Source: a virus. From it: a stretch of DNA of 21,024 nt. Below, in pieces: positions 3,526 through 18,075 of this stretch (its first letter is position 1; each line of letters opens with the position of its first letter). Location: positions 1-21,024 of IMG/VR virus record IMGVR_UViG_3300031886_000060. One strand, 5' to 3'. The notes under the pieces were generated by a model. That model saw nothing but the letters and a program-made list of their open reading frames with translations. It ran no database searches and was not told the DNA's origin. The position numbers were made by a program, and so were the translations under genes.

Positions 3526-4557
3526 CTATTTTTGCCTTCGTGTTTGACTGAATACATTTGCTAATGCACCCATAACATCCCTTCTTTGATCCTTTATTTG
3601 CTGACTATGACCTTCATCAACCCATTGATCATCCATAAATACTCCTAAAGCTCTAGCAATATTTTCTTGTATATCTTCCAAAAATGGATACTGTGGATTC
3701 TTCTTGTACTCTCCCATTAGAGCTGTCGTATAGAGCTTACCTAGAATTTCTCTTGGATTGTTTCTACCTTCGTGATGTGATACATTAACTTGATCTTCCA
3801 TATCCAAGTGAGCAGTTCTAGGATCACGCATCCATAACTCCATCAAATTCTCTTGTGTCATAGCATGAGGCTTCCTATTGATCATAGACTCTACCACATC
3901 ACTCAAAAAGAAATTGCCATCGCCTAAATTCCAATCTAGATAATGACCATACTCGTGTCCAGTAACATTTGAAAAAGGGATTAGAGTATTTCCCTGATGA
4001 CTAATAGCATCTCTTGACATTTCTGCACCATCCCTAGTTATAGCCAAATGATTTTCATTAGGATTGTATTTACCCCATGCTCTTAATAAACCACGTTGGT
4101 TTAAATCCCAGTTCATACCAGTATTCCTTTCTAGCCATTCTCGTTCATACTTATCTCTTGGTTCACTCTCTATATGTGGATTCTTTGCTACATTAACCAT
4201 AAAATTTTTACCATAAGGGATATCTCTATCAGCAGATGATGAAAGTTGAACATCCCAAGGGAATAGATTCTTTCGATCTACCTTCAATCCAAACTTCTCG
4301 AAGGTCTTTAATGTTCTATCACCAAACTCATTCCATATAGGATGGCTACCATGAACCATGTCAACTGTTGCACCAAAGGTTGATGGTGTGTACTGATCAT
4401 AATAATGTGGAGACTCTCGTTGAGGTATATCCATTACTCCTGCTCTTTGTTGGTACACTTCTTTAAGTTTATTTATCTCTGCTTGATTGGGTTTAGTGTT
4501 AGATGCTGAACCTAACAAACCACCAAGACCTTCGTATGCTTCTTTTAGTAGACTCAT
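3526..4557 (-). CDS. HExxH zinc metallopeptidase-like protein
   Basis: This 343-residue protein carries HEYGH at residues 201-205, preceded by hydrophobic SNVTG and followed by YLDWNLGD, the usual form of a zincin active-site helix with two zinc-binding histidines and a catalytic glutamate. The third ligand is not certain; glutamate or histidine candidates lie in the following 100 residues (VSHHEGRNNPREILGK, EDIQENIARALG). The gene overlaps the 1061-residue polyvalent protein gene by ATGA. Stand-alone or fused zincin metallopeptidases are known among polyvalent-protein domains (MPTase-PolyVal class), so it may be an effector ejected with the DNA or a prohead/virion maturation protease. No signal peptide is present. 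The enzyme class is well supported by the motif; substrate and stage are inference. Confidence 0.7.
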   Translation of the reverse strand: MSLLKEAYEGLGGLLGSASNTKPNQAEINKLKEVYQQRAGVMDIPQRESPHYYDQYTPSTFGATVDMVHGSHPIWNEFGDRTLKTFEKFGLKVDRKNLFPWDVQLSSSADRDIPYGKNFMVNVAKNPHIESEPRDKYEREWLERNTGMNWDLNQRGLLRAWGKYNPNENHLAITRDGAEMSRDAISHQGNTLIPFSNVTGHEYGHYLDWNLGDGNFFLSDVVESMINRKPHAMTQENLMELWMRDPRTAHLDMEDQVNVSHHEGRNNPREILGKLYTTALMGEYKKNPQYPFLEDIQENIARALGVFMDDQWVDEGHSQQIKDQRRDVMGALANVFSQTRRQK

Positions 4558-7500
4558 GCTAGTAACCCTTGTTCTATTATGTCTGTTTTGAGTAACCCGG
4601 AGTCTATTTTATTTGCTTCACCATATTGTGGCAATGGTATTACTTTGCTGTCTTCGGGTAAATTAGGTAATGCTTTCCTCATATTTTCTATCATTTCAGG
4701 AGTAATTTCGATGACATAATTTACCTCACCATCTATTTCCATTTCTTTGAGTTTACCACCTTTATACTTTTCTAATAGTTTACGAGCTGCATTAGGCAGT
4801 TGCTTGTCATATATATTTTTATATAGTTCTTGGTATCTAATATTGCCTTTTTCGTTTAACTCTCTACTTCTATTCCATTTATCTAAAATTTGCGAACTAC
4901 TAGACCAACTAACAAACTTTAATCCTTTTGCATGTGCCTTTTGTATTGCATCTTGTAACCCAGTTGTAATGTAAATGTCTTTATGTTTTAAAGGAGTACG
5001 ATCCATTACATCGTGATCTTCCCATCCCTCTCTTTTCCTGTCTGTAACATCTTGTTGATTAACTACATAGTCCTCTACATCACTAAACATACGAGTTTCG
5101 GAATATTTATGTATGTCAAAGTTAGCACTATCAGGATTGTATTCATTGTTTTCCCAATCTGCATTTATATCACTAATCACTCTCTTAGTTTGTAAATCAA
5201 AATCCTCAAATGCTTTTTTGAACTCTGGACTATTCATAGTAGCAGTAGAAAGACCTTGTTGGGCGCCTGGAATGTTATGAGATGTAAATTGATTCCATAT
5301 ACCTTTGTGAGACGTTTTTTTAACACTTGCTATAAATGCTGCTTTAAACATATAGTTAGGAACATCTTGCAAGGCTGCCCTTGCTGTATCTAAATGCGTT
5401 TTGTCATCAGGATAAAGATCATACTCATCCATAGTATCTTCAAACACACTTATTGCTGTACGATAAGAATGTAAATCTTTATCGTATACTCTTAATTTAT
5501 CACCTATATCATCGTATTCAGTTTGAGTGAAACCAAATTGTCTTCCATCTTGTATCCAATCAGACTGCATCTCTTCAATAAAATAAATAGGAGTATCTGT
5601 TTGAATCATATCCAGATAAGTTGAAGGATTTTCAGTAATAGATGAACCATCTTTATGGTAATCACCCCTAGGTCTTATTGTTTTACGATAACTGATTAAG
5701 GTATTTGGGTTAGTGGTTCCATAATGACCTTCTGTGTATTTAGATTCACCACTCCTAGGTACAAGACTGATTAATTCTTCGGAATATGTATTTTCATATT
5801 GCTTTGCAACAGAACCAAGATAACCATGATACTGGGATTGGCCATGACCTCGTTCATCACCTACAGACCTTACTGCTTCTAGGAAACCTCTTTCTTGTGC
5901 ATCAGTATTAAGCATTGCCTGTGCTCTTGGTAAATCTACGCTATCTGCAATTAAGTTCATTTCAGGATCGTAAACAAAATACCCATTATCATTATTTCCA
6001 GCAACTAAATACTCAACTGATTCCTCAGGACCGTCATATCCTTCGTGAGTATCAACTGTTATTCTTTGTTCAAAGGTTGGATTTTGTAAATAGTCCTTTT
6101 CTGCTATTGTATAAAGTGCATCCTGAAAATCAAGTACCTCATCCACATTTTTGTCATTTTGCCCCCATTGAGCTTGATTTGAACCTCTTGCCATCATATC
6201 CGGGCCTCCATGATGCAAGTCTTTAGCTAGAAGTTGATCCCATTGTTCTATACCTGAATTGTTTAGTTCTTGTAGTGCTGTTAAGGATGTCTTGTTCTCT
6301 TGAAGTAATTGACCAATAGCTGGTTGGTTTTCTCTAGCGGCTTTGTTTAACGCTTCCATTGATTGGAAGTTTATATGTGCTTCTAAACCATGTGTCAATG
6401 GATATTTTTCTGGCTTATCTTCATGCATTTGAAAGAAAACTCTTGCCATTTTATCATCATCTCTTGATGCATCAGCTTGTCTAACTGTAAATGAATAATA
6501 CTCATTATCTTGAACATAGTTAAATGGGTAATGCTCTCTATACTCCGTATCTCTTGCACGAAGACTACGATCTATATGACTTATTTCTGTGTCTGCATGT
6601 ACTTCAAATGAACCTCTCATATCTGCCATTAAGTTTTCGCTGATTTCTTGAACTACTTCAGGGTTTTCCACTACACTCAATGTGCCATCAGGAGTTTCAA
6701 TCTCACCAATCTGATAACGCTCATTAACTCCTCTCTCCACAGCAGGGGTTGGCCCGTATTCTTCCCACGTTTCGTAAGGATCGTGAACAAATGCCATATT
6801 TGGCGTGTAATTTAGTGTATTCACACCTGTATTAGTTGGTGACAACAAAGATGTAGAAAGTAGACTTGTTCGGTTAAGACTTATGTGATCTAACAAACCT
6901 TGTTGAGTTACTGATTGACCATCTAAGTTCTTCACATAATCATCAATGTTTAAATCTTTTATTTCAGCAGCTAATATGCCTCTTCCTTGTAAGTAAGGCA
7001 CAACTTGATTGGCAGCCATTGAGGGTTGTTTCATATCCATAACTGTCTTTTCAGCTTTAGAGTATGTACCTGCTGCATCAAAGAAAGGATTATCACCCAC
7101 ATCCTTTATTGATAGACCAACAGGGAGCGCTCCAAGAGTTCTTACTTGATCCGTTATTGCGGCTAATCTTTCTGCACTTAAATAATTCTCTAGTTTTCTT
7201 GCTCCCCATACACCACCGAATACCATAGCGACAACATCAGCTGGATGTTCAAGTGCCGCCTTTCTTACTGCGCCAGGAGTGCTAAAGAATTGTTGAGCAG
7301 AGTCCAGCACGAATGTTGCCATCTCTTCATTCGTAGTGTTGTCGATGTTTGGAAATAAACCTGCCTTTGTTGCCAGGCCCGATCCTAAACCGAATATTGC
7401 TTTACCTGTTTTGATAGGATTCATCGCAATATCAATGCCACCTTCAGCTATTTCAAACAAATTTGATGGTAAGTTCTTTCCAAATACTTTAGCATCTTGT

Positions 7501-7739
7501 ACAGTATTAGCAACTATATTGTCTAACAGACTCAGACCTGTTACTGGTTCATTGGGATGTTTGTTGATTACTGGAGGAGCTTCAATCTTGTCTTGATAAA
7601 GACCAATACTCTTGCCAAACTCGAATGGTTTGTCTACTAACAAGCCTGTAACTTTGTCTTGTCTCTCCTGTTCTGTACCTAAGAAACCTGTAACCTGATT
7701 CCCTACTACATCCCATACACTACCAAGAAAACTACTCAT
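4554..7739 (-). CDS. Large polyvalent protein (putative ejected virion protein)
   Basis: A 1061-residue multidomain protein. The N-terminal ~190 residues contain weakly hydrophobic Gly/Ala-rich helices (GKAIFGLGSGLATKAGLF, ADVVAMVFGGVWGARKL) of the type seen in internal virion proteins. Residues 253-290 (GILAAEIKDLNIDDYV...VTQQGLLDHI) resemble the 'vtk.Evldfl' segment of phage polyvalent proteins. Residues 719-736 read YFIEEMQSDWIQDGRQFGF, the signature usually seen as IEEiQSDWHQ.GR..GY. Residues 921-1016 follow the same family pattern: GLQDAIQKAHAKGLKFVSW, then YDKQLPNAARKLLEKYKG, then IEITPEM. Polyvalent proteins (Iyer and colleagues) are packaged in virions or conjugative particles and delivered with DNA to modify or protect in the new host. 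Here the gene follows TerL directly and overlaps it by ATGA. Individual enzymatic activities cannot be assigned by eye. Confidence 0.75.
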   Translation of the reverse strand: MSSFLGSVWDVVGNQVTGFLGTEQERQDKVTGLLVDKPFEFGKSIGLYQDKIEAPPVINKHPNEPVTGLSLLDNIVANTVQDAKVFGKNLPSNLFEIAEGGIDIAMNPIKTGKAIFGLGSGLATKAGLFPNIDNTTNEEMATFVLDSAQQFFSTPGAVRKAALEHPADVVAMVFGGVWGARKLENYLSAERLAAITDQVRTLGALPVGLSIKDVGDNPFFDAAGTYSKAEKTVMDMKQPSMAANQVVPYLQGRGILAAEIKDLNIDDYVKNLDGQSVTQQGLLDHISLNRTSLLSTSLLSPTNTGVNTLNYTPNMAFVHDPYETWEEYGPTPAVERGVNERYQIGEIETPDGTLSVVENPEVVQEISENLMADMRGSFEVHADTEISHIDRSLRARDTEYREHYPFNYVQDNEYYSFTVRQADASRDDDKMARVFFQMHEDKPEKYPLTHGLEAHINFQSMEALNKAARENQPAIGQLLQENKTSLTALQELNNSGIEQWDQLLAKDLHHGGPDMMARGSNQAQWGQNDKNVDEVLDFQDALYTIAEKDYLQNPTFEQRITVDTHEGYDGPEESVEYLVAGNNDNGYFVYDPEMNLIADSVDLPRAQAMLNTDAQERGFLEAVRSVGDERGHGQSQYHGYLGSVAKQYENTYSEELISLVPRSGESKYTEGHYGTTNPNTLISYRKTIRPRGDYHKDGSSITENPSTYLDMIQTDTPIYFIEEMQSDWIQDGRQFGFTQTEYDDIGDKLRVYDKDLHSYRTAISVFEDTMDEYDLYPDDKTHLDTARAALQDVPNYMFKAAFIASVKKTSHKGIWNQFTSHNIPGAQQGLSTATMNSPEFKKAFEDFDLQTKRVISDINADWENNEYNPDSANFDIHKYSETRMFSDVEDYVVNQQDVTDRKREGWEDHDVMDRTPLKHKDIYITTGLQDAIQKAHAKGLKFVSWSSSSQILDKWNRSRELNEKGNIRYQELYKNIYDKQLPNAARKLLEKYKGGKLKEMEIDGEVNYVIEITPEMIENMRKALPNLPEDSKVIPLPQYGEANKIDSGLLKTDIIEQGLLA

Positions 7740-11131: not shown

Positions 11132-11351
11132 TGGACGGTCCTGTCATTATTTCGCCCTTGTTATGATTTTTTTCTTTCACCATGTTAATAATTAATCGAA
11201 ACTTGAGCTGATCACACATATCAATAAGATTTTGACATAGAGTTTGTTTGACATCTTCATCCTCGATCTCACCAATAACATGAATTACATCCAGCATTGT
11301 CTGTGTTAATTGGACTCGTTCTTCGTGGCTGATTTTACTTAACGTGGGCAT
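11121..11351 (-). CDS. Small helical hypothetical protein
   Basis: A 76-residue, mostly helical protein with no recognised domain: HEERVQLTQTMLDVIHVIGE and KQTLCQNLIDMCDQLKFRL suggest two or three amphipathic helices. It is the second gene of the minus operon, overlapping the HTH gene by 17 bases and the VRR-NUC gene by 11 bases, so it is almost certainly translated. It could be a regulator partner or an anti-host factor; the sequence alone does not decide. Confidence 0.6.
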   Translation of the reverse strand: MPTLSKISHEERVQLTQTMLDVIHVIGEIEDEDVKQTLCQNLIDMCDQLKFRLIINMVKEKNHNKGEIMTGPSSEV

Positions 11352-11541
11352 GATGCTGACTTTCTAAGTAATGCGCTAGACCATAAATTTGCCAATGAAA
11401 GCTGTTGTTGTCTGCCTTTATGTTGTGATTTAATGTTGATCTAGTAATTCCTAGCAACTTTGCAGCTTGAGATTGTGTTAAGCCTAGTCGTACAAGTTCG
11501 TCAGGGATAGATTTGTAATAAACATGTCTAATTTTTTTCAT
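11335..11541 (-). CDS. Cro-like helix-turn-helix regulator
   Basis: A 68-residue basic protein with a clear HTH: LGLTQSQAAKLLGITRSTLN at residues 19-38, where Gln-Ala-Ala in the first helix and ITRSTLN in the recognition helix are typical. It is the first gene of the long minus-strand operon and faces the control region. No Shine-Dalgarno precedes the ATG, and a TATAAT lies so close that the transcript would begin at or next to the ATG, as for leaderless phage repressors such as lambda cI. The likely job is to bind the TGTACGA sites at its own promoter and at the divergent early promoter. Confidence 0.78.
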   Translation of the reverse strand: MKKIRHVYYKSIPDELVRLGLTQSQAAKLLGITRSTLNHNIKADNNSFHWQIYGLAHYLESQHHAHVK

Positions 11542-11544
11542 ATA

Positions 11545-11577
11545 GTCATTATATCAAATATCGTACAAGTGCTTGGT
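11545..11577 (-). promoter_or_regulatory. Minus-strand promoter of the HTH/late operon, probably leaderless
   Basis: On the minus strand TGATATAAT is a consensus extended -10 (TATAAT at 11553-11548). The -35 region 17-19 bases upstream is poor (ACCAAG or CCAAGC). Seven bases downstream of the -10 is 11541, the A of the HTH start codon, so the mRNA would be leaderless. The -10 and its upstream flank belong to a 23-bp block (11545-11567) repeated inverted at the early promoter. A weak -35 plus a leaderless start is like lambda PRM and suggests activation or autoregulation. Confidence 0.6.
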
Positions 11578-11594
11578 TGGTTTAACTATATGTT

Positions 11595-11644
11595 TCGCTT
11601 TCAGCGACTCTCCTTGGTAGAGCTGAGGTCTAAAGACCTTTTTT
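11595..11644 (+). terminator. Three-hairpin structure ending in an intrinsic terminator
   Basis: Three short stems follow one another: TCGCT-TTC-AGCGA (11595-11607), CTCT-CCTTGGT-AGAG (11608-11622) and AGGTC-TAAA-GACCT (11626-11639), the last running into six T (11639-11644). The third is a good rho-independent terminator for plus-strand transcription, although the stem is only 5 bp. It could end a small RNA or block transcription that enters antisense to the HTH gene. No convincing plus-strand promoter was found just upstream. Confidence 0.45.
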
Positions 11645-11832
11645 AAAGAGCTCTTAACTTATCGGGTTAAGTGTGGAGTTGGGTTTTCGAGTAAGTCAAT
11701 CCCTAGAATACAATTAAGTAAACTAGAGATTGTCATCGGTATAAAGCGCATCGCAGTATAATCGAGTCTGAAACAATCACAGTCAGTCAGATCAGAGTCA
11801 TCGCTACCTTGTGATAGGTACTCAGCCTTCTG

Positions 11833-11950
11833 CACTCTGCGAGTGTATTAACACCCATCAATCAGCAGTTTTATGGAATACGATTGCTGAATCTCTTTTT
11901 TTGTAAGTGGTGTGAGTGCAGCCAAATAGCTAGACAGATCACCACTCGCA
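11833..11950. repeat. Inverted-repeat cluster
   Basis: CACTC-TGC-GAGTG (11833-11845) is a perfect palindrome; GTGT-ATTA-ACAC follows at 11843-11854. TGCGAGTG (11838-11845) is the exact reverse complement of CACTCGCA (11943-11950). AGTGGTG (11906-11912) pairs with CACCACT (11940-11946). The segment can therefore form alternative long-range stems. It may be a structured RNA, a protein-binding array or an origin element; nothing more can be said from sequence alone. Confidence 0.45.
11862..11902 (+). terminator. Terminator-like hairpin
   Basis: TCAGCA (11862-11867) pairs with TGCTGA (11885-11890), with two or three more inner pairs including G-U. Seven T follow at 11896-11902, but five bases separate stem and T-run, so it is an imperfect intrinsic terminator on the plus strand. 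With the -10-like TATAAT at 11757 it would bound an RNA of roughly 130 bases. Confidence 0.35.
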
Positions 11951-11959
11951 TCCTGAGAG

Positions 11960-11987
11960 TTGCCAATATGTCTTTATAGGGTATAAT
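11960..11987 (+). promoter_or_regulatory. Strong sigma70-type promoter
   Basis: TTGCCA (11960-11965), a 16-base spacer and TATAAT (11982-11987) give a near-consensus bacterial promoter on the plus strand, with predicted start near 11994. A terminator lies only ~65 bases downstream, so its main product should be a short RNA. Confidence 0.7.
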
Positions 11988-11993
11988 CCTTGT

Positions 11994-12061
11994 CAAACAG
12001 CAGGGGCAACTGCCAGTTTAGAAGAACCTCAAGAGAAATTATCAAGCTCTTGGGGTTTTTT
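11994..12061 (+). ncRNA. Putative ~68-nt small RNA
   Basis: The promoter at 11960 and the terminator ending at 12061 enclose a short, non-coding unit. Its 5' part contains a self-complementary AACT-GCC-AGTT (12008-12018), its 3' part the terminator hairpin. Size and position in the immunity-like region recall lambda OOP RNA (77 nt), but no antisense overlap with a gene is seen here, so it may act in trans, titrate a protein, or be an attenuated leader of the early operon. The 5' end is predicted, not known. Confidence 0.5.
12025..12061 (+). terminator. Intrinsic terminator
   Basis: AACCTCAAGAG (12025-12035) pairs with CTCTTGGGGTT (12047-12057) over 11 bp with one G-T pair and an 11-base loop; six T occupy 12056-12061, followed by GTTTT. 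This is the best rho-independent terminator in the window. It lies upstream of the early promoter at 12139, so early genes rely on that promoter unless read-through occurs. Confidence 0.8.
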
Positions 12062-12138
12062 GTTTTCTAAACCAAGACCACAAATCATACACTAAATTTT
12101 ACAGGACCGTCTATAGATTAAATTATTTTTGAAAATAG

Positions 12139-12197
12139 TTAACATATCTGTACGAAATTTGATACAATGACCTTGTCATCAAGCAAAAAAGGTGACA
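12139..12197 (+). promoter_or_regulatory. Early promoter with overlapping operator elements
   Basis: TTAACA (12139-12144), an 18-base spacer and extended -10 TGATACAAT (-10 hexamer 12163-12168) drive the plus operon; the start would be near 12175. The block 12149-12171 repeats, inverted, the HTH gene promoter with 21 of 23 matches. At the start site is a perfect palindrome ATGAC-CTT-GTCAT (12167-12179). In the leader TGTCATC (12174-12180) can pair with GGTGACA (12191-12197). An AGGAGA Shine-Dalgarno follows at 12211. Confidence 0.65.
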
Positions 12198-12221
12198 CTT
12201 TTAACTAGATAGGAGATTCAA

Positions 12222-12383
12222 ATGAGTCAATATAAAAAACAAACTGATCATCAACTAAAGGAAAATCTTGCGACCGCAATCAATAATAAATCTCACCACC
12301 CTTTCGTACAAGGGAGGGATTTTTTTGCCGAACAAGAAAAACTAATCAAAAATGAAATCAATAACAGAAAGGAGAATAAATAA
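12222..12383 (+). CDS. First early gene, 53-residue hypothetical protein
   Basis: ATG at 12222 with AGGAGA (12211-12216) at ideal distance opens a 53-codon frame, MSQYKKQTDHQLKENLATAI... ending INNRKENK. The protein is very polar, lysine- and asparagine-rich and probably helical; no domain is recognised. The last codons double as the Shine-Dalgarno of the next gene, and the TAA overlaps the next ATG (TAATG). As the promoter-proximal early gene it is a good candidate for a host-takeover factor, by analogy only. Confidence 0.65.
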   Translation: MSQYKKQTDHQLKENLATAINNKSHHPFVQGRDFFAEQEKLIKNEINNRKENK

Positions 12384-15478: not shown

Positions 15479-15659
15479 ATTTACAGATAAGGAACTAATG
15501 GCTTTTGCTGATGGTGAGCTAAAAGGTGGTAAGGCTATGGATATTCTAGCCGAATTATTGAAAGAAACCCCAGAATCCGAAATCCTGGCCAAGCGTCTTG
15601 AGGTCTTTACTTCAACTCGCAACGCTTTACTTAATGCTCTAATAGGAGAGAAGAAATGA
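15468..15659 (+). CDS. Anti-sigma-factor-like small protein
   Basis: A 63-residue soluble protein beginning MKNKFTDKELMAFADGELKG and continuing helical to LLKETPESEILAKRLEVFTS and TRNALLNALI. The string T-x-ELMA-F/Y-ADGEL, then helix, 'l..~pe......~~~~r..L..al', is the N-terminal pattern of group IV anti-sigma factors that sequester ECF sigma factors; the transmembrane and periplasmic parts of such proteins are absent. A phage could use it to redirect host RNA polymerase. Similarity is by eye and short, so a generic helical protein remains possible. Its stop overlaps the methyltransferase start. Confidence 0.5.
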   Translation: MKNKFTDKELMAFADGELKGGKAMDILAELLKETPESEILAKRLEVFTSTRNALLNALIGEKK

Positions 15660-16291
15660 AAATACTTGAATTGTTTGCAGGTAGTAGATCGTTTTCTAAA
15701 GCTGCTGAATCATTAGGACATGAGACGTTTACTTCGGATATAGAGGCGTTTGACAAAATTGACTATGTAACAGACATATTTGATTTTAATCCAGAAGAAG
15801 TTCCATTTCGCCCAGACATTATATGGGCATCACCTCCCTGTACTTTCTTTTCTGTAGGATCAATAGGCAAACATTGGAATAAAGACCATACTCCTAAGAC
15901 TGAAGGTGCTAAATTAGGCATAGCAATTATTAAGAAAACACTAGAAATAATAGATATTTTACAACCATCTTACTTTGTTATTGAAAACCCAAGAGGTAAA
16001 TTGCGCAAGTTAGGGTTGATTGATCCTAAGTTTCACGGTCGCAGCAATGTAAGACAAACAGTTTGGTATTGCCAATATGGTGATATGAGAGCAAAGCCAA
16101 CCGATCTATGGACTAATATCTATGACTGGACACCAAGACCTCTATGTTTTAATGGCAATAGAGATTGTCATCATCAACCTGCTCCAAGAGGTTCTCAGTC
16201 GGGAACGCAAGGATTAGCCAATAGTTATGAGAAAAGTAAGGTACCAGAAGAACTTTGTTTGGAAATTTTAAAAACTTTAGGAGATAAATAA
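15656..16291 (+). CDS. Short DNA cytosine-5 methyltransferase
   Basis: A 211-residue C5-methyltransferase-like protein. Motif I is LELFAGSRSFSKAAESLGH (residues 4-22) for S-adenosylmethionine, motif IV WASPPCTFFS with catalytic Cys62, motif VI IENPRGKLRK (109-118, with ENP rather than ENV). VRQTVWYCQYGD and KPTDLWTN are features common to small phage enzymes of this type. No large target-recognition domain is visible, so specificity is unknown. It may protect phage DNA from host restriction. AATAGGAGAGAAGAAATG gives a good Shine-Dalgarno; the stop overlaps the next ATG. Confidence 0.88.
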   Translation: MKILELFAGSRSFSKAAESLGHETFTSDIEAFDKIDYVTDIFDFNPEEVPFRPDIIWASPPCTFFSVGSIGKHWNKDHTPKTEGAKLGIAIIKKTLEIIDILQPSYFVIENPRGKLRKLGLIDPKFHGRSNVRQTVWYCQYGDMRAKPTDLWTNIYDWTPRPLCFNGNRDCHHQPAPRGSQSGTQGLANSYEKSKVPEELCLEILKTLGDK

Positions 16292-16410: not shown

Positions 16411-16697
16411 TGAAGAAGCTACGAACTAAATCGTACACTTTACGAGATGGGCAAGTAGTCACCTGTAGATCAGTAGCAAAAAAAATTGGTGTTTCTGAAT
16501 CTGCCGCAAGGAATCGCTTAAATCGTTCAGACGATCCAAAGAAAATTTTTGCTCCCTTTAGTCCTGTCGGTAAAAAACCTAAAAAAGATAAACTACCCAA
16601 GAGTGCTACGATCCTACCCATTGACGATCCAATGTACATTTTGGCATTTGGTGGAGCAGAAGCCTACAAAAGGGCCATTGAGAAACAAAATGCTTGA
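16410..16697 (+). CDS. HTH DNA-binding protein paired with the methyltransferase
   Basis: A 95-residue basic protein. Residues 18-39 (TCRSVAKKIGVSESAARNRL) form a helix-turn-helix, followed by SDDPKKIF and a Lys/Pro-rich linker (PVGKKPKKDKLPK) and a C-terminal FGGAEAYKRAIEKQ. Phage proteins with a 'vaxxlGvsesaarnRl.rs.dp..i' arrangement are putative regulators or replication accessory proteins. Its gene overlaps the following methyltransferase by eight bases, so it might control or assist that enzyme; this is inferred from position. Confidence 0.65.
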   Translation: MKKLRTKSYTLRDGQVVTCRSVAKKIGVSESAARNRLNRSDDPKKIFAPFSPVGKKPKKDKLPKSATILPIDDPMYILAFGGAEAYKRAIEKQNA

Positions 16698-18075
16698 ACA
16701 AGACCTATTTGATGCGCACCCTATTATTGGGGAATCAGAGGAAAAAATCGAACTCGATGTGGTTTTGTCTGTCTTTGATGGTATGAGTTGCGGTCAGTTG
16801 GCCCTCAAACAAGCAGGTATGACACCTCGTGTCTACTATGCGAGTGAGATTGAAAAGTCTCCAATGTACATCACAAAGAAGAATTTTCCTTCAACTATAA
16901 TGCTAGGTGATGTGACTAAGGTTGTGGCTGATGATTTACCACACGTTAACTTATTACTGGGCGGTTCGCCATGCCAAGGATTTTCGTTTGCCGGAAAGCA
17001 GTTGAATTTTGACGATCCCCGGAGTAAGCTCTTCTTCGAGTTTGTTCGATTGCTTAACGAATTGAAGCCAGATTTCTTTCTCCTTGAAAACGTGTTAATG
17101 CAACAAGAATTTCAAGATATTATATCGGCCCATGTCAGCGGCAAACTAGAGCCAGGCGAAAGAGGTATTCAACCTCAGTTAATCAATTCAGCGGATTGTT
17201 CGGCCCAAAATCGTAAACGTCTTTATTGGTGGGGAAAAAGAGTGGGAGATAAATATATCCAACTGCCTATACCAGATATAGAAGATATGGGTATTGTATT
17301 GAAGGATATATTAGAGGATATACCTGTTGATAAAGAAGTGATGCCATATATGACTGGAACCTATGATGGAGCTTCTAGACTAGAGAAAGGGATTTTTAAC
17401 TTTACAGATCAAGATAAAGCAAAGTGTCTAACAACAAAGACTGGTCATGGCAACAAGTATTTAATCCATAGACCTTGCGAGATTAGGAAAGAGTGGACAC
17501 CTAAAAACGACCTTCAATGGGATATACATGAAGAAGAAGAAGAAGAAGGTCAAGAACTTAAAGATTTTACTGAAGAAACGAAATGTCATCATGTCGCAAC
17601 TGCAACTGATGTTGAAGGTCACGATATGAACAAACGAGTGTATGCGAATACCGGGAAAGCTCCATGTTTGCACACTCGTGCTGGTGAAACGAAGATATTA
17701 ACAGATGTAGTTGTATTAAATGAAAATCAAAAAAGAAAAATTGATGACATTGAAACAACAACAGATAAAGCAAATTGTCTTACTACTGCAATAGGTCGTG
17801 GTGGAAGTTCTAACGAATATCTGACTGCCGTTAAGAAGAAAACTTTAGCATTAGCAAAAGATGATGATCGCTTTGATCAACTAACCTATAGAAAACTGAC
17901 GGTCACAGAATGTGCTCGGCTGCAAACTGTTCCAGACTCGTATATGGAGGATTGCTTTGATGAAAAAGGCAAACCGGTGAGTGATACTCAAAAATTCAAG
18001 GCTTTAGGGAATGGCTGGACCGTAGCCGTAATAGTCCATATCTTACAAGGAATGAGGTATATCGTTAAAGACTAA
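16690..18075 (+). CDS. DNMT3-like DNA cytosine-5 methyltransferase with modular recognition region
   Basis: A 461-residue enzyme, starting at the ATG at 16690 inside the preceding stop; an upstream in-frame extension lies wholly over the HTH gene and is not plausible coding. Motif I VLSVFDGMSCGQLALKQAG (25-43), motif IV GGSPCQGFSFAG with catalytic Cys95, RSKLFFEFVRLL (111-122), motif VI LLENV (131-135), motif VIII QNRKRLYWWG (173-182), motif IX RKLTVTECARLQ (401-412), motif X LGNGWTVAVI (439-448). The FDG and SKLFFEF strings resemble the DNMT3 type. Between VIII and IX, modules A.CLTT..G.G recur at 243-255, 323-333 and 360-372, with a related segment at 296-312. Six glutamates encoded by a GAA run lie at 281-286. 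Confidence 0.92.
   Translation: MLEQDLFDAHPIIGESEEKIELDVVLSVFDGMSCGQLALKQAGMTPRVYYASEIEKSPMYITKKNFPSTIMLGDVTKVVADDLPHVNLLLGGSPCQGFSFAGKQLNFDDPRSKLFFEFVRLLNELKPDFFLLENVLMQQEFQDIISAHVSGKLEPGERGIQPQLINSADCSAQNRKRLYWWGKRVGDKYIQLPIPDIEDMGIVLKDILEDIPVDKEVMPYMTGTYDGASRLEKGIFNFTDQDKAKCLTTKTGHGNKYLIHRPCEIRKEWTPKNDLQWDIHEEEEEEGQELKDFTEETKCHHVATATDVEGHDMNKRVYANTGKAPCLHTRAGETKILTDVVVLNENQKRKIDDIETTTDKANCLTTAIGRGGSSNEYLTAVKKKTLALAKDDDRFDQLTYRKLTVTECARLQTVPDSYMEDCFDEKGKPVSDTQKFKALGNGWTVAVIVHILQGMRYIVKD

Follow-up and report, generated by a model that had tools for sequence, protein, structure and literature searches.

What does a short, terminated RNA do in the control region of a phage when no protein gene lies opposite to it? 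This question is raised by the IMG/VR virus record IMGVR_UViG_3300031886_000060, of which positions 1 to 21,024 were analysed (21,024 nt, in the following called the window). A sequence-only reading had assigned a small-RNA gene to 11960-12061. These coordinates hold for the small RNA itself, but they comprise merely the 3' fifth of a functional element that spans about 11577-12115.

The small plus-strand RNA and its homologues

Relatives of the region were gathered from IMG/VR using neighbouring proteins and conserved DNA patterns. Among the loci collected, 167 fit a profile of the region, some of them as overlapping pieces of one contig; 144 matches were condensed to 82 distinct sequences and these to 52 with differences above 7%. 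The noncoding stretch of approximately 11590-12100 between the divergent operons is retained in the relatives with 60-93% identity, usually in full length. No protein frame is conserved across the noncoding block on either strand; protein coding, including a 58-aa ORF at 11659-11835, was rejected because the frame is not conserved in relatives. The small RNA comprises the following features.

11960..11987, plus strand: promoter of the small antisense RNA, -35 TTGCCA (11960-11965), 16-nt spacer, -10 TATAAT (11982-11987)
11995..12061, plus strand: predicted small antisense RNA (RNA I-like) of ~67 nt, based on its fold and the two-hairpin form in relatives
11995-12019, plus strand: 5' hairpin of the small RNA, loop GGGCAA
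12021-12061, plus strand: terminator hairpin of the small RNA, U-run at its end

The promoter TTGCCA-16-TATAAT is present as originally described. It is an 11/12 sigma-70-like match and the top of 15 promoter-like sites between 9 and 15 kb, a class that is not enriched as such (15 found vs 18.2 +/- 4.4 expected in shuffles). Its TATAAT is kept in all 52 non-redundant homologues and a TTG -35 at a spacing of 15-18 nt in 45 of them (exactly 16 nt in 34); the hexamers are conserved, the spacer between them is not. The segment 11995-12061 folds with -24.8 kcal/mol (z = -4.9), which none of 200 shuffles equals. The intrinsic terminator expected after the promoter is a strong hairpin with an equivalent in 52/52 relatives; with its loop of 11 nt it escaped a simple scan that allowed loops of up to 8 nt.

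A generic alignment misaligns the stems of the small RNA (51-66% paired), and the RNA was therefore judged by per-sequence folding. When each sequence is folded singly, a 5' hairpin and a terminator hairpin are predicted downstream of the promoter in 52/52 homologues, giving RNAs of 57-74 nt with two stem-loops. The first stem covaries among relatives (GCAG/CTGC, GGTG/CACC, GGAA/TTCC, GGTA/TACC), so that the covariation check proposed at the outset finds stem changes compensated among the 52 relatives. Read on the plus strand, the terminator has 69 G.T wobbles vs 3 A.C, as expected if the plus-strand RNA is the folding molecule. This is in good agreement with the earlier proposal of a self-contained unit from promoter to terminator (about 67 nt instead of ~68 nt), with no conserved protein frame in between. 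Judged by this conservation, the predicted small-RNA gene is real in evolutionary terms.

Known RNAs and genomes were searched for the element. Rfam gave no match at the gathering threshold in the window or in 5 relatives, where relaxed E-values yielded chance-level hits only; this includes ROOL, GOLLD, OLE and all other Rfam covariance models. By blastn, the element was not found in cultured phage records, and it has no DNA similarity to any phage record. A plasmid match (NZ_CP126866, E 3e-4) falls in protein genes and was judged to be chance. In cellular genomes, nine pattern matches were obtained, none of which was confirmed by the profile. No published account of the element was found in the literature searched, mostly excluding subscription journals and preprints.

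A predicted long structured RNA on the opposite strand

It had been stated that the small RNA is not antisense to any visible gene. This holds for protein genes, but not for noncoding ones. A second conserved promoter on the minus strand faces the small RNA, and the block to its left carries an extended fold.

12084..12113, minus strand: promoter of the long RNA, -10 TATGAT (12084-12089), weak -35 TAGACG (12108-12113) in the window
11639..12077, minus strand: predicted long structured RNA (putative primer, RNA II-like), ~440 nt to the A-tract, may reach ~11577 (~440-500 nt)
11725-11730/11891-11896, minus strand: long-range closing helix L1 of the core domain, 96% paired
11767-11771/11787-11791, minus strand: hairpin Pa, 100% paired, double changes in all 5 pairs
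11777-11781 with 11810-11814, minus strand: kissing loop K1 between Pa loop and Pc loop, 92% paired, double changes in 3 pairs
11793-11798/11834-11839, minus strand: helix Pb, encloses Pc, 100% paired, compensatory changes
11805-11809/11816-11820, minus strand: hairpin Pc, 100% paired, compensatory changes
11822-11826/11886-11890, minus strand: pseudoknot helix Pd, 99% paired, double changes in 4 pairs
11843-11846/11851-11854, minus strand: hairpin Pg, 96% paired, double changes in 4 pairs
11878-11881/11948-11951, minus strand: pseudoknot helix Pe, encloses Pf, 99.5% paired, 3 pairs doubly changed
11908-11912/11940-11944, minus strand: helix Pf, 97% paired, double changes in 5 pairs
11639-11644, minus strand: A-tract AAAAAA, with H3 a candidate RNA-to-DNA transition site
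11627-11630/11635-11638, minus strand: hairpin H3 after the A-tract, varies with compensation, 90% paired
11548..11553, minus strand: -10 TATAAT of the left (late) operon promoter, beyond the long RNA, in 41/52 relatives

The promoter of the long RNA is of the sigma-70 type; its -10 (TATNAT) is present in 50 of the 52 relatives, in promoters such as TTGACC-17-TATGAT, TTGCAA-17-TATTAT and TTGACA-16-TATAAT. With this conserved box at 12084-12089, the long RNA should therefore start near 12077. We infer its 5' end from the promoter position, and its 3' end is likewise a prediction. The small RNA (11995-12061, plus) falls wholly inside 11995-12077 of the long RNA (minus), an arrangement found in 52/52 relatives. 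By its position, the predicted small RNA is antisense to the first ~80-82 nt of the long minus-strand RNA and not to a protein gene.

The long RNA contains at least nine conserved helices, including pseudoknots (two crossing helices), and a kissing loop. Covarying helices were picked by mutual information and counted on a separately made alignment in minus-strand reading. Helix cells are 91.8% paired, vs 29-41% when the partners are slid by 1-3 columns, and doubly changed cells number 344 vs 87 in shuffles; the slid controls correct for relatedness while the shuffle counts do not, and the sequences counted are also those from which the structure was deduced. Five helices are 99-100% paired. 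An example of covariation in K1 is the change from AUCAC/GUGAU to AUUAC/GUAAU, while L1 has no covariation support because it is nearly invariant. Among helix cells that are not Watson-Crick pairs (H3 excluded), G.U on the minus strand occurs 62 times vs 7 times for A.C. From these counts, the large fold is that of a minus-strand RNA.

Two other readings of the block were rejected. A plus-strand RNA that comprises the whole ~480-nt block and ends at the 12061 terminator is contradicted by the G.U/A.C asymmetry. The T-run after AATCTCT (11897-11904) was considered as a second plus-strand terminator; helices Pe and Pf extend beyond it.

Past the A-tract hairpin, at 11594-11606, lie small stable hairpins whose sequences differ between phages (CGCTGAAAGCG, TCCGAAGGAG, GGTGCTTCAGCACC), with equivalents in L048, L077, L201, L215 and L222. 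They might represent single-strand initiation signals. A motif TAAACCAA(C) occurs at both block ends (11577-11584, minus; 12069-12076, plus) as well as near the small-RNA and long-RNA promoters of relatives (L020, L060, L100, L134, L129). A protein may bind to it, or it might serve a pairing of the long RNA's 5' and 3' ends that competes with the small-RNA target.

Replication genes and the exchange at the locus

Five near-complete RNA-bearing relatives (31.7-40.7 kb) were inspected for replication genes. Every ORF of at least 100 aa was called; the Pfam scan covered all five, in G001, G004 and G007 with the ORFs outside the main structural blocks. Pfam recognised virion genes, methylases and nucleases, SSB and single-strand annealing proteins, and recombination genes of the NinB/YbcO type. 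Among the scanned ORFs of the five relatives, none matched a helicase, primase, polymerase or Rep family, and Helicase_C, DnaB_C, Prim-Pol and PolA were all without a match in a six-frame search of nine RNA-bearing contigs (G001-G009). Of the terminase relatives that lack the RNA, Paracoccus phage KLEP18-1 has an annotated helicase and primase-polymerase; Helicase_C was found there, and the Prim-Pol negative is weak because this model missed the annotated protein. Another terminase relative that lacks the RNA (L029) carries PolA and a D5-like protein, as judged by inspection. The RNA-bearing genomes come from metagenomes, their completeness is not certified, and a novel initiator protein could be hidden among their many early genes of unassigned function.

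The minimum of the GC skew coincides with the element, which could be explained by the divergent genes alone. The RNA module was seen together with an SU10-like portal and capsid (G001-G004) and with apparently another portal and capsid type (G007). Given these different virion types, it seems to move between phage lineages.

A direct comparison is provided by 35 loci that are anchored by a VRR-NUC gene and have at least 1.5 kb of upstream sequence. The RNA is present in 29 of them, and the remaining six all carry a replication-initiator-type gene in the same place, accompanied in four cases (L105, L107, L108, L109) by a lambda-P-like loader. No initiator of that type was found in the RNA-bearing anchored loci. 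The naive probability of this partition is 6e-7, an overstated value since the loci are related. Two loci with the same order of HTH, VRR-NUC, YbcO and terminase (L022/L023) have a replication-initiation protein at the position of the RNA (PHROG E 1e-16). For the same reason of relatedness, the eight swap cases represent few independent events.

One group of relatives (the L100 group; L101:6308-6505) has the RNA and, in addition, a stretch of 67 aa with 33% identity to the ORF that adjoins the initiator of L023. This loader-like match sits between VRR-NUC and YbcO, and no initiator occurs in the group. An earlier protein-based module may have left it as a remnant.

A putative RNA-made replication module and its alternatives

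The two promoters, the terminator, the antisense overlap, both folds with their strands and the replacement by initiator genes are read from the sequences directly. We consider it probable that the block of ~11577-12115 is a replication-initiation module made of RNA and organised like that of ColE1, in which the long RNA would be the primer and the small RNA its RNA I-like regulator. The replication role is proposed because near-complete RNA-bearing genomes (36-41 kb) show no recognisable helicase, primase, polymerase or initiator, because of the swap at the locus and because the layout is ColE1-like. The replication primer was the closest of the three roles first suggested for the small RNA, with the difference that priming would most likely fall to the long minus-strand RNA and regulation to the small one.

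For transcription, the long RNA's 3' end, priming and inhibition, we propose the following course by analogy. Host RNA polymerase would transcribe an RNA of ~440-500 nt leftwards from ~12077, which would adopt the conserved domain with pseudoknots and kissing loop. This fold would keep the 3' end hybridised to the template near the A-tract and H3 (11627-11644), as in ColE1 RNA II. RNase H would cut the hybridised RNA, and host DNA polymerase I would extend the primer in leading-strand synthesis. The RNA of ~67 nt from the opposite strand would pair early with the 5' end of the long RNA, block its productive folding and limit initiation in the manner of RNA I.

RNA-primed, antisense-controlled replication is the textbook mechanism of the ColE1 plasmid. 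The arrangement here is similar: opposite the 5' end of a predicted long noncoding transcript lies a shorter, fully antisense RNA that has a promoter and a terminator of its own. Promoters lie on both strands at similar distances, no encoded initiator is recognised, and an A-tract lies near the presumed 3' end. A ColE1-type primer transcript starts at a sigma-70 promoter several hundred bp upstream of the origin; the candidate for such a transcript is the structured minus-strand RNA, which is conserved together with its promoter. As a positive control, Rfam finds RNAI (RF00106) at 645-749 of the ColE1 record, opposite to the ~555-nt RNA II; no RNAI match was obtained in the window, and an nhmmer profile of the region misses ColE1. 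ColE1 RNA I has 108 nt and three stem-loops, whereas the small RNA here has two hairpins and 57-74 nt. Unlike ColE1, the long RNA here has a conserved pseudoknotted domain and is carried by virulent-looking phages instead of a plasmid. The idea of a ColE1 origin having AAAAAAAGGATC and a hairpin is contradicted by the ColE1 record, in which AAAAAAAGGATC is located where the RNA I terminator and the RNA II promoter are; the origin has GGAAAAACGCC instead, which makes the A-tract a loose analogy. The element would operate like ColE1, but by sequence comparison it is not a ColE1 homologue or family member. For ColE1, nt 2-110 of the ~550-nt primer RNA II are covered by RNA I, and no initiator is encoded (PMC5043065).

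Other systems share single traits with the element. Lambda OOP RNA is likewise a short terminated phage RNA in a control region. It is antisense to the cII mRNA, while the target here is a noncoding RNA with no conserved frame opposite. ROOL, GOLLD and OLE, two of which occur in phages, are also large, knotted and conserved noncoding RNAs; they differ from the element, which has a dedicated antisense RNA, is replaced by initiator genes in relatives and has no Rfam match. In Synechocystis, plasmid pSYSA has a ColE1-like pair of overlapping RNAs, ssr7036 and asRNA1, in which the abundant antisense RNA sets the copy number; unlike here, the primer is an mRNA, and the helicase-primase CyRepA1 is also needed (PMC9978351). 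According to those parts of Wetzel et al. 2020 (PMC7157519) on which we draw, the non-RepA parABS mycobacteriophages Alma, LadyBird and RedRock have RNA-based origins for their extrachromosomal prophages. There, a noncoding transcribed region of 400-500 bp fulfils the role that repA has in close relatives, and the modules are interchangeable, which resembles the exchange with a protein initiator module described above. That region serves prophage maintenance beside parABS, and its deletion leaves lytic growth normal. The same parts mention neither an antisense RNA nor a covarying fold, both features of the element here. In the scanned ORFs of the RNA-bearing relatives, no integrase or parABS family was found, and the element has no detectable similarity to the mycobacteriophage origins.

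Four other explanations have to be weighed. The long RNA may be the 5' leader that controls the left (late) operon, with the small RNA as an antisense attenuator of the pT181 type or the P4/P1 c4 type. This is the strongest rival because the long RNA reads into the left operon, as it does in the examined loci, with no hairpin and U-run terminator seen on the minus strand before the operon; all the same, we regard it as unlikely. That strand shows no attenuator hairpin or terminator either, the operon has its own conserved -10 past the RNA (41/52), which argues against the long RNA as merely its leader, and the initiator-gene swap and the missing replication genes would be left unexplained. The proposed antitermination-controlled leader of the early operon found no support. 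Size, pseudoknots, kissing loop and phage location would also suit a trans-acting ornate RNA like ROOL, GOLLD or 6S RNA, regulated by the small antisense RNA and without a role in replication. It is rather improbable, as it has no Rfam match and as replacement by replication initiators at the same site is not expected of a trans-acting RNA.

A double-stranded DNA origin, bound by a host protein or an unknown phage protein, would draw on the same swap and missing-initiator evidence and on the small variable hairpins near 11594-11606, with the covariation reflecting DNA hairpins or cruciforms. However, DNA hairpins would not favour the retention of G.U on one strand (62 vs 7), and two promoters and a terminator that are all conserved speak for transcription, which makes this origin a very doubtful candidate. 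Least credible is a small RNA that acts alone in trans or as an OOP-like primer. Its self-contained promoter and terminator fit such a role, but all of it falls in the stretch opposite the long RNA's conserved 5' end, and its information is mostly in stems and overlap; the suggested trans-acting RNA found no support. No immunity function was found for the position described as immunity-like.

If the locus is an RNA-made replication module, a wider statement follows towards which we lean with some caution. A large, mostly marine and apparently virulent phage family would start lytic replication without an initiator protein, by a ~450-nt tertiary-folded RNA that relies on host enzymes, is throttled by an antisense RNA and is swapped wholesale with lambda O/P-type genes. 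Here, marine is deduced from what the related contigs and phages are and not from sample records, and virulent means solely that the scans found no integrase or partition family. Such a mechanism would account for the replication of small podoviruses without recognisable replication proteins, and would make RNA and protein initiators exchangeable during evolution. It would also provide a new folded RNA and possibly a new replicon for vectors. The RNA forms a distinct family outside Rfam that occupies the lambda O/P-type gene position of sister phages.

Some further features of the window and its relatives were noted. The divergent left (11548-11566, minus) and right (12150-12168, plus) promoters share TGTACGAwATTTGATAyAAT, which suggests a common operator or activator site, perhaps with the HTH protein at 11335-11541 as its ligand. 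The 1061-aa protein that adjoins the large terminase (4554-7739, minus) has no PHROG match. The promoter and leader of the right operon (12119-12248) have a second, diverged copy ~5-6 kb away in some relatives (L051:8824-8940, L053:8556-8682, L054:9795-9921). The early operon contains two DNA methyltransferase genes (15656-16291 and 16693-18075), the second of which matches the large phrog_116 family.
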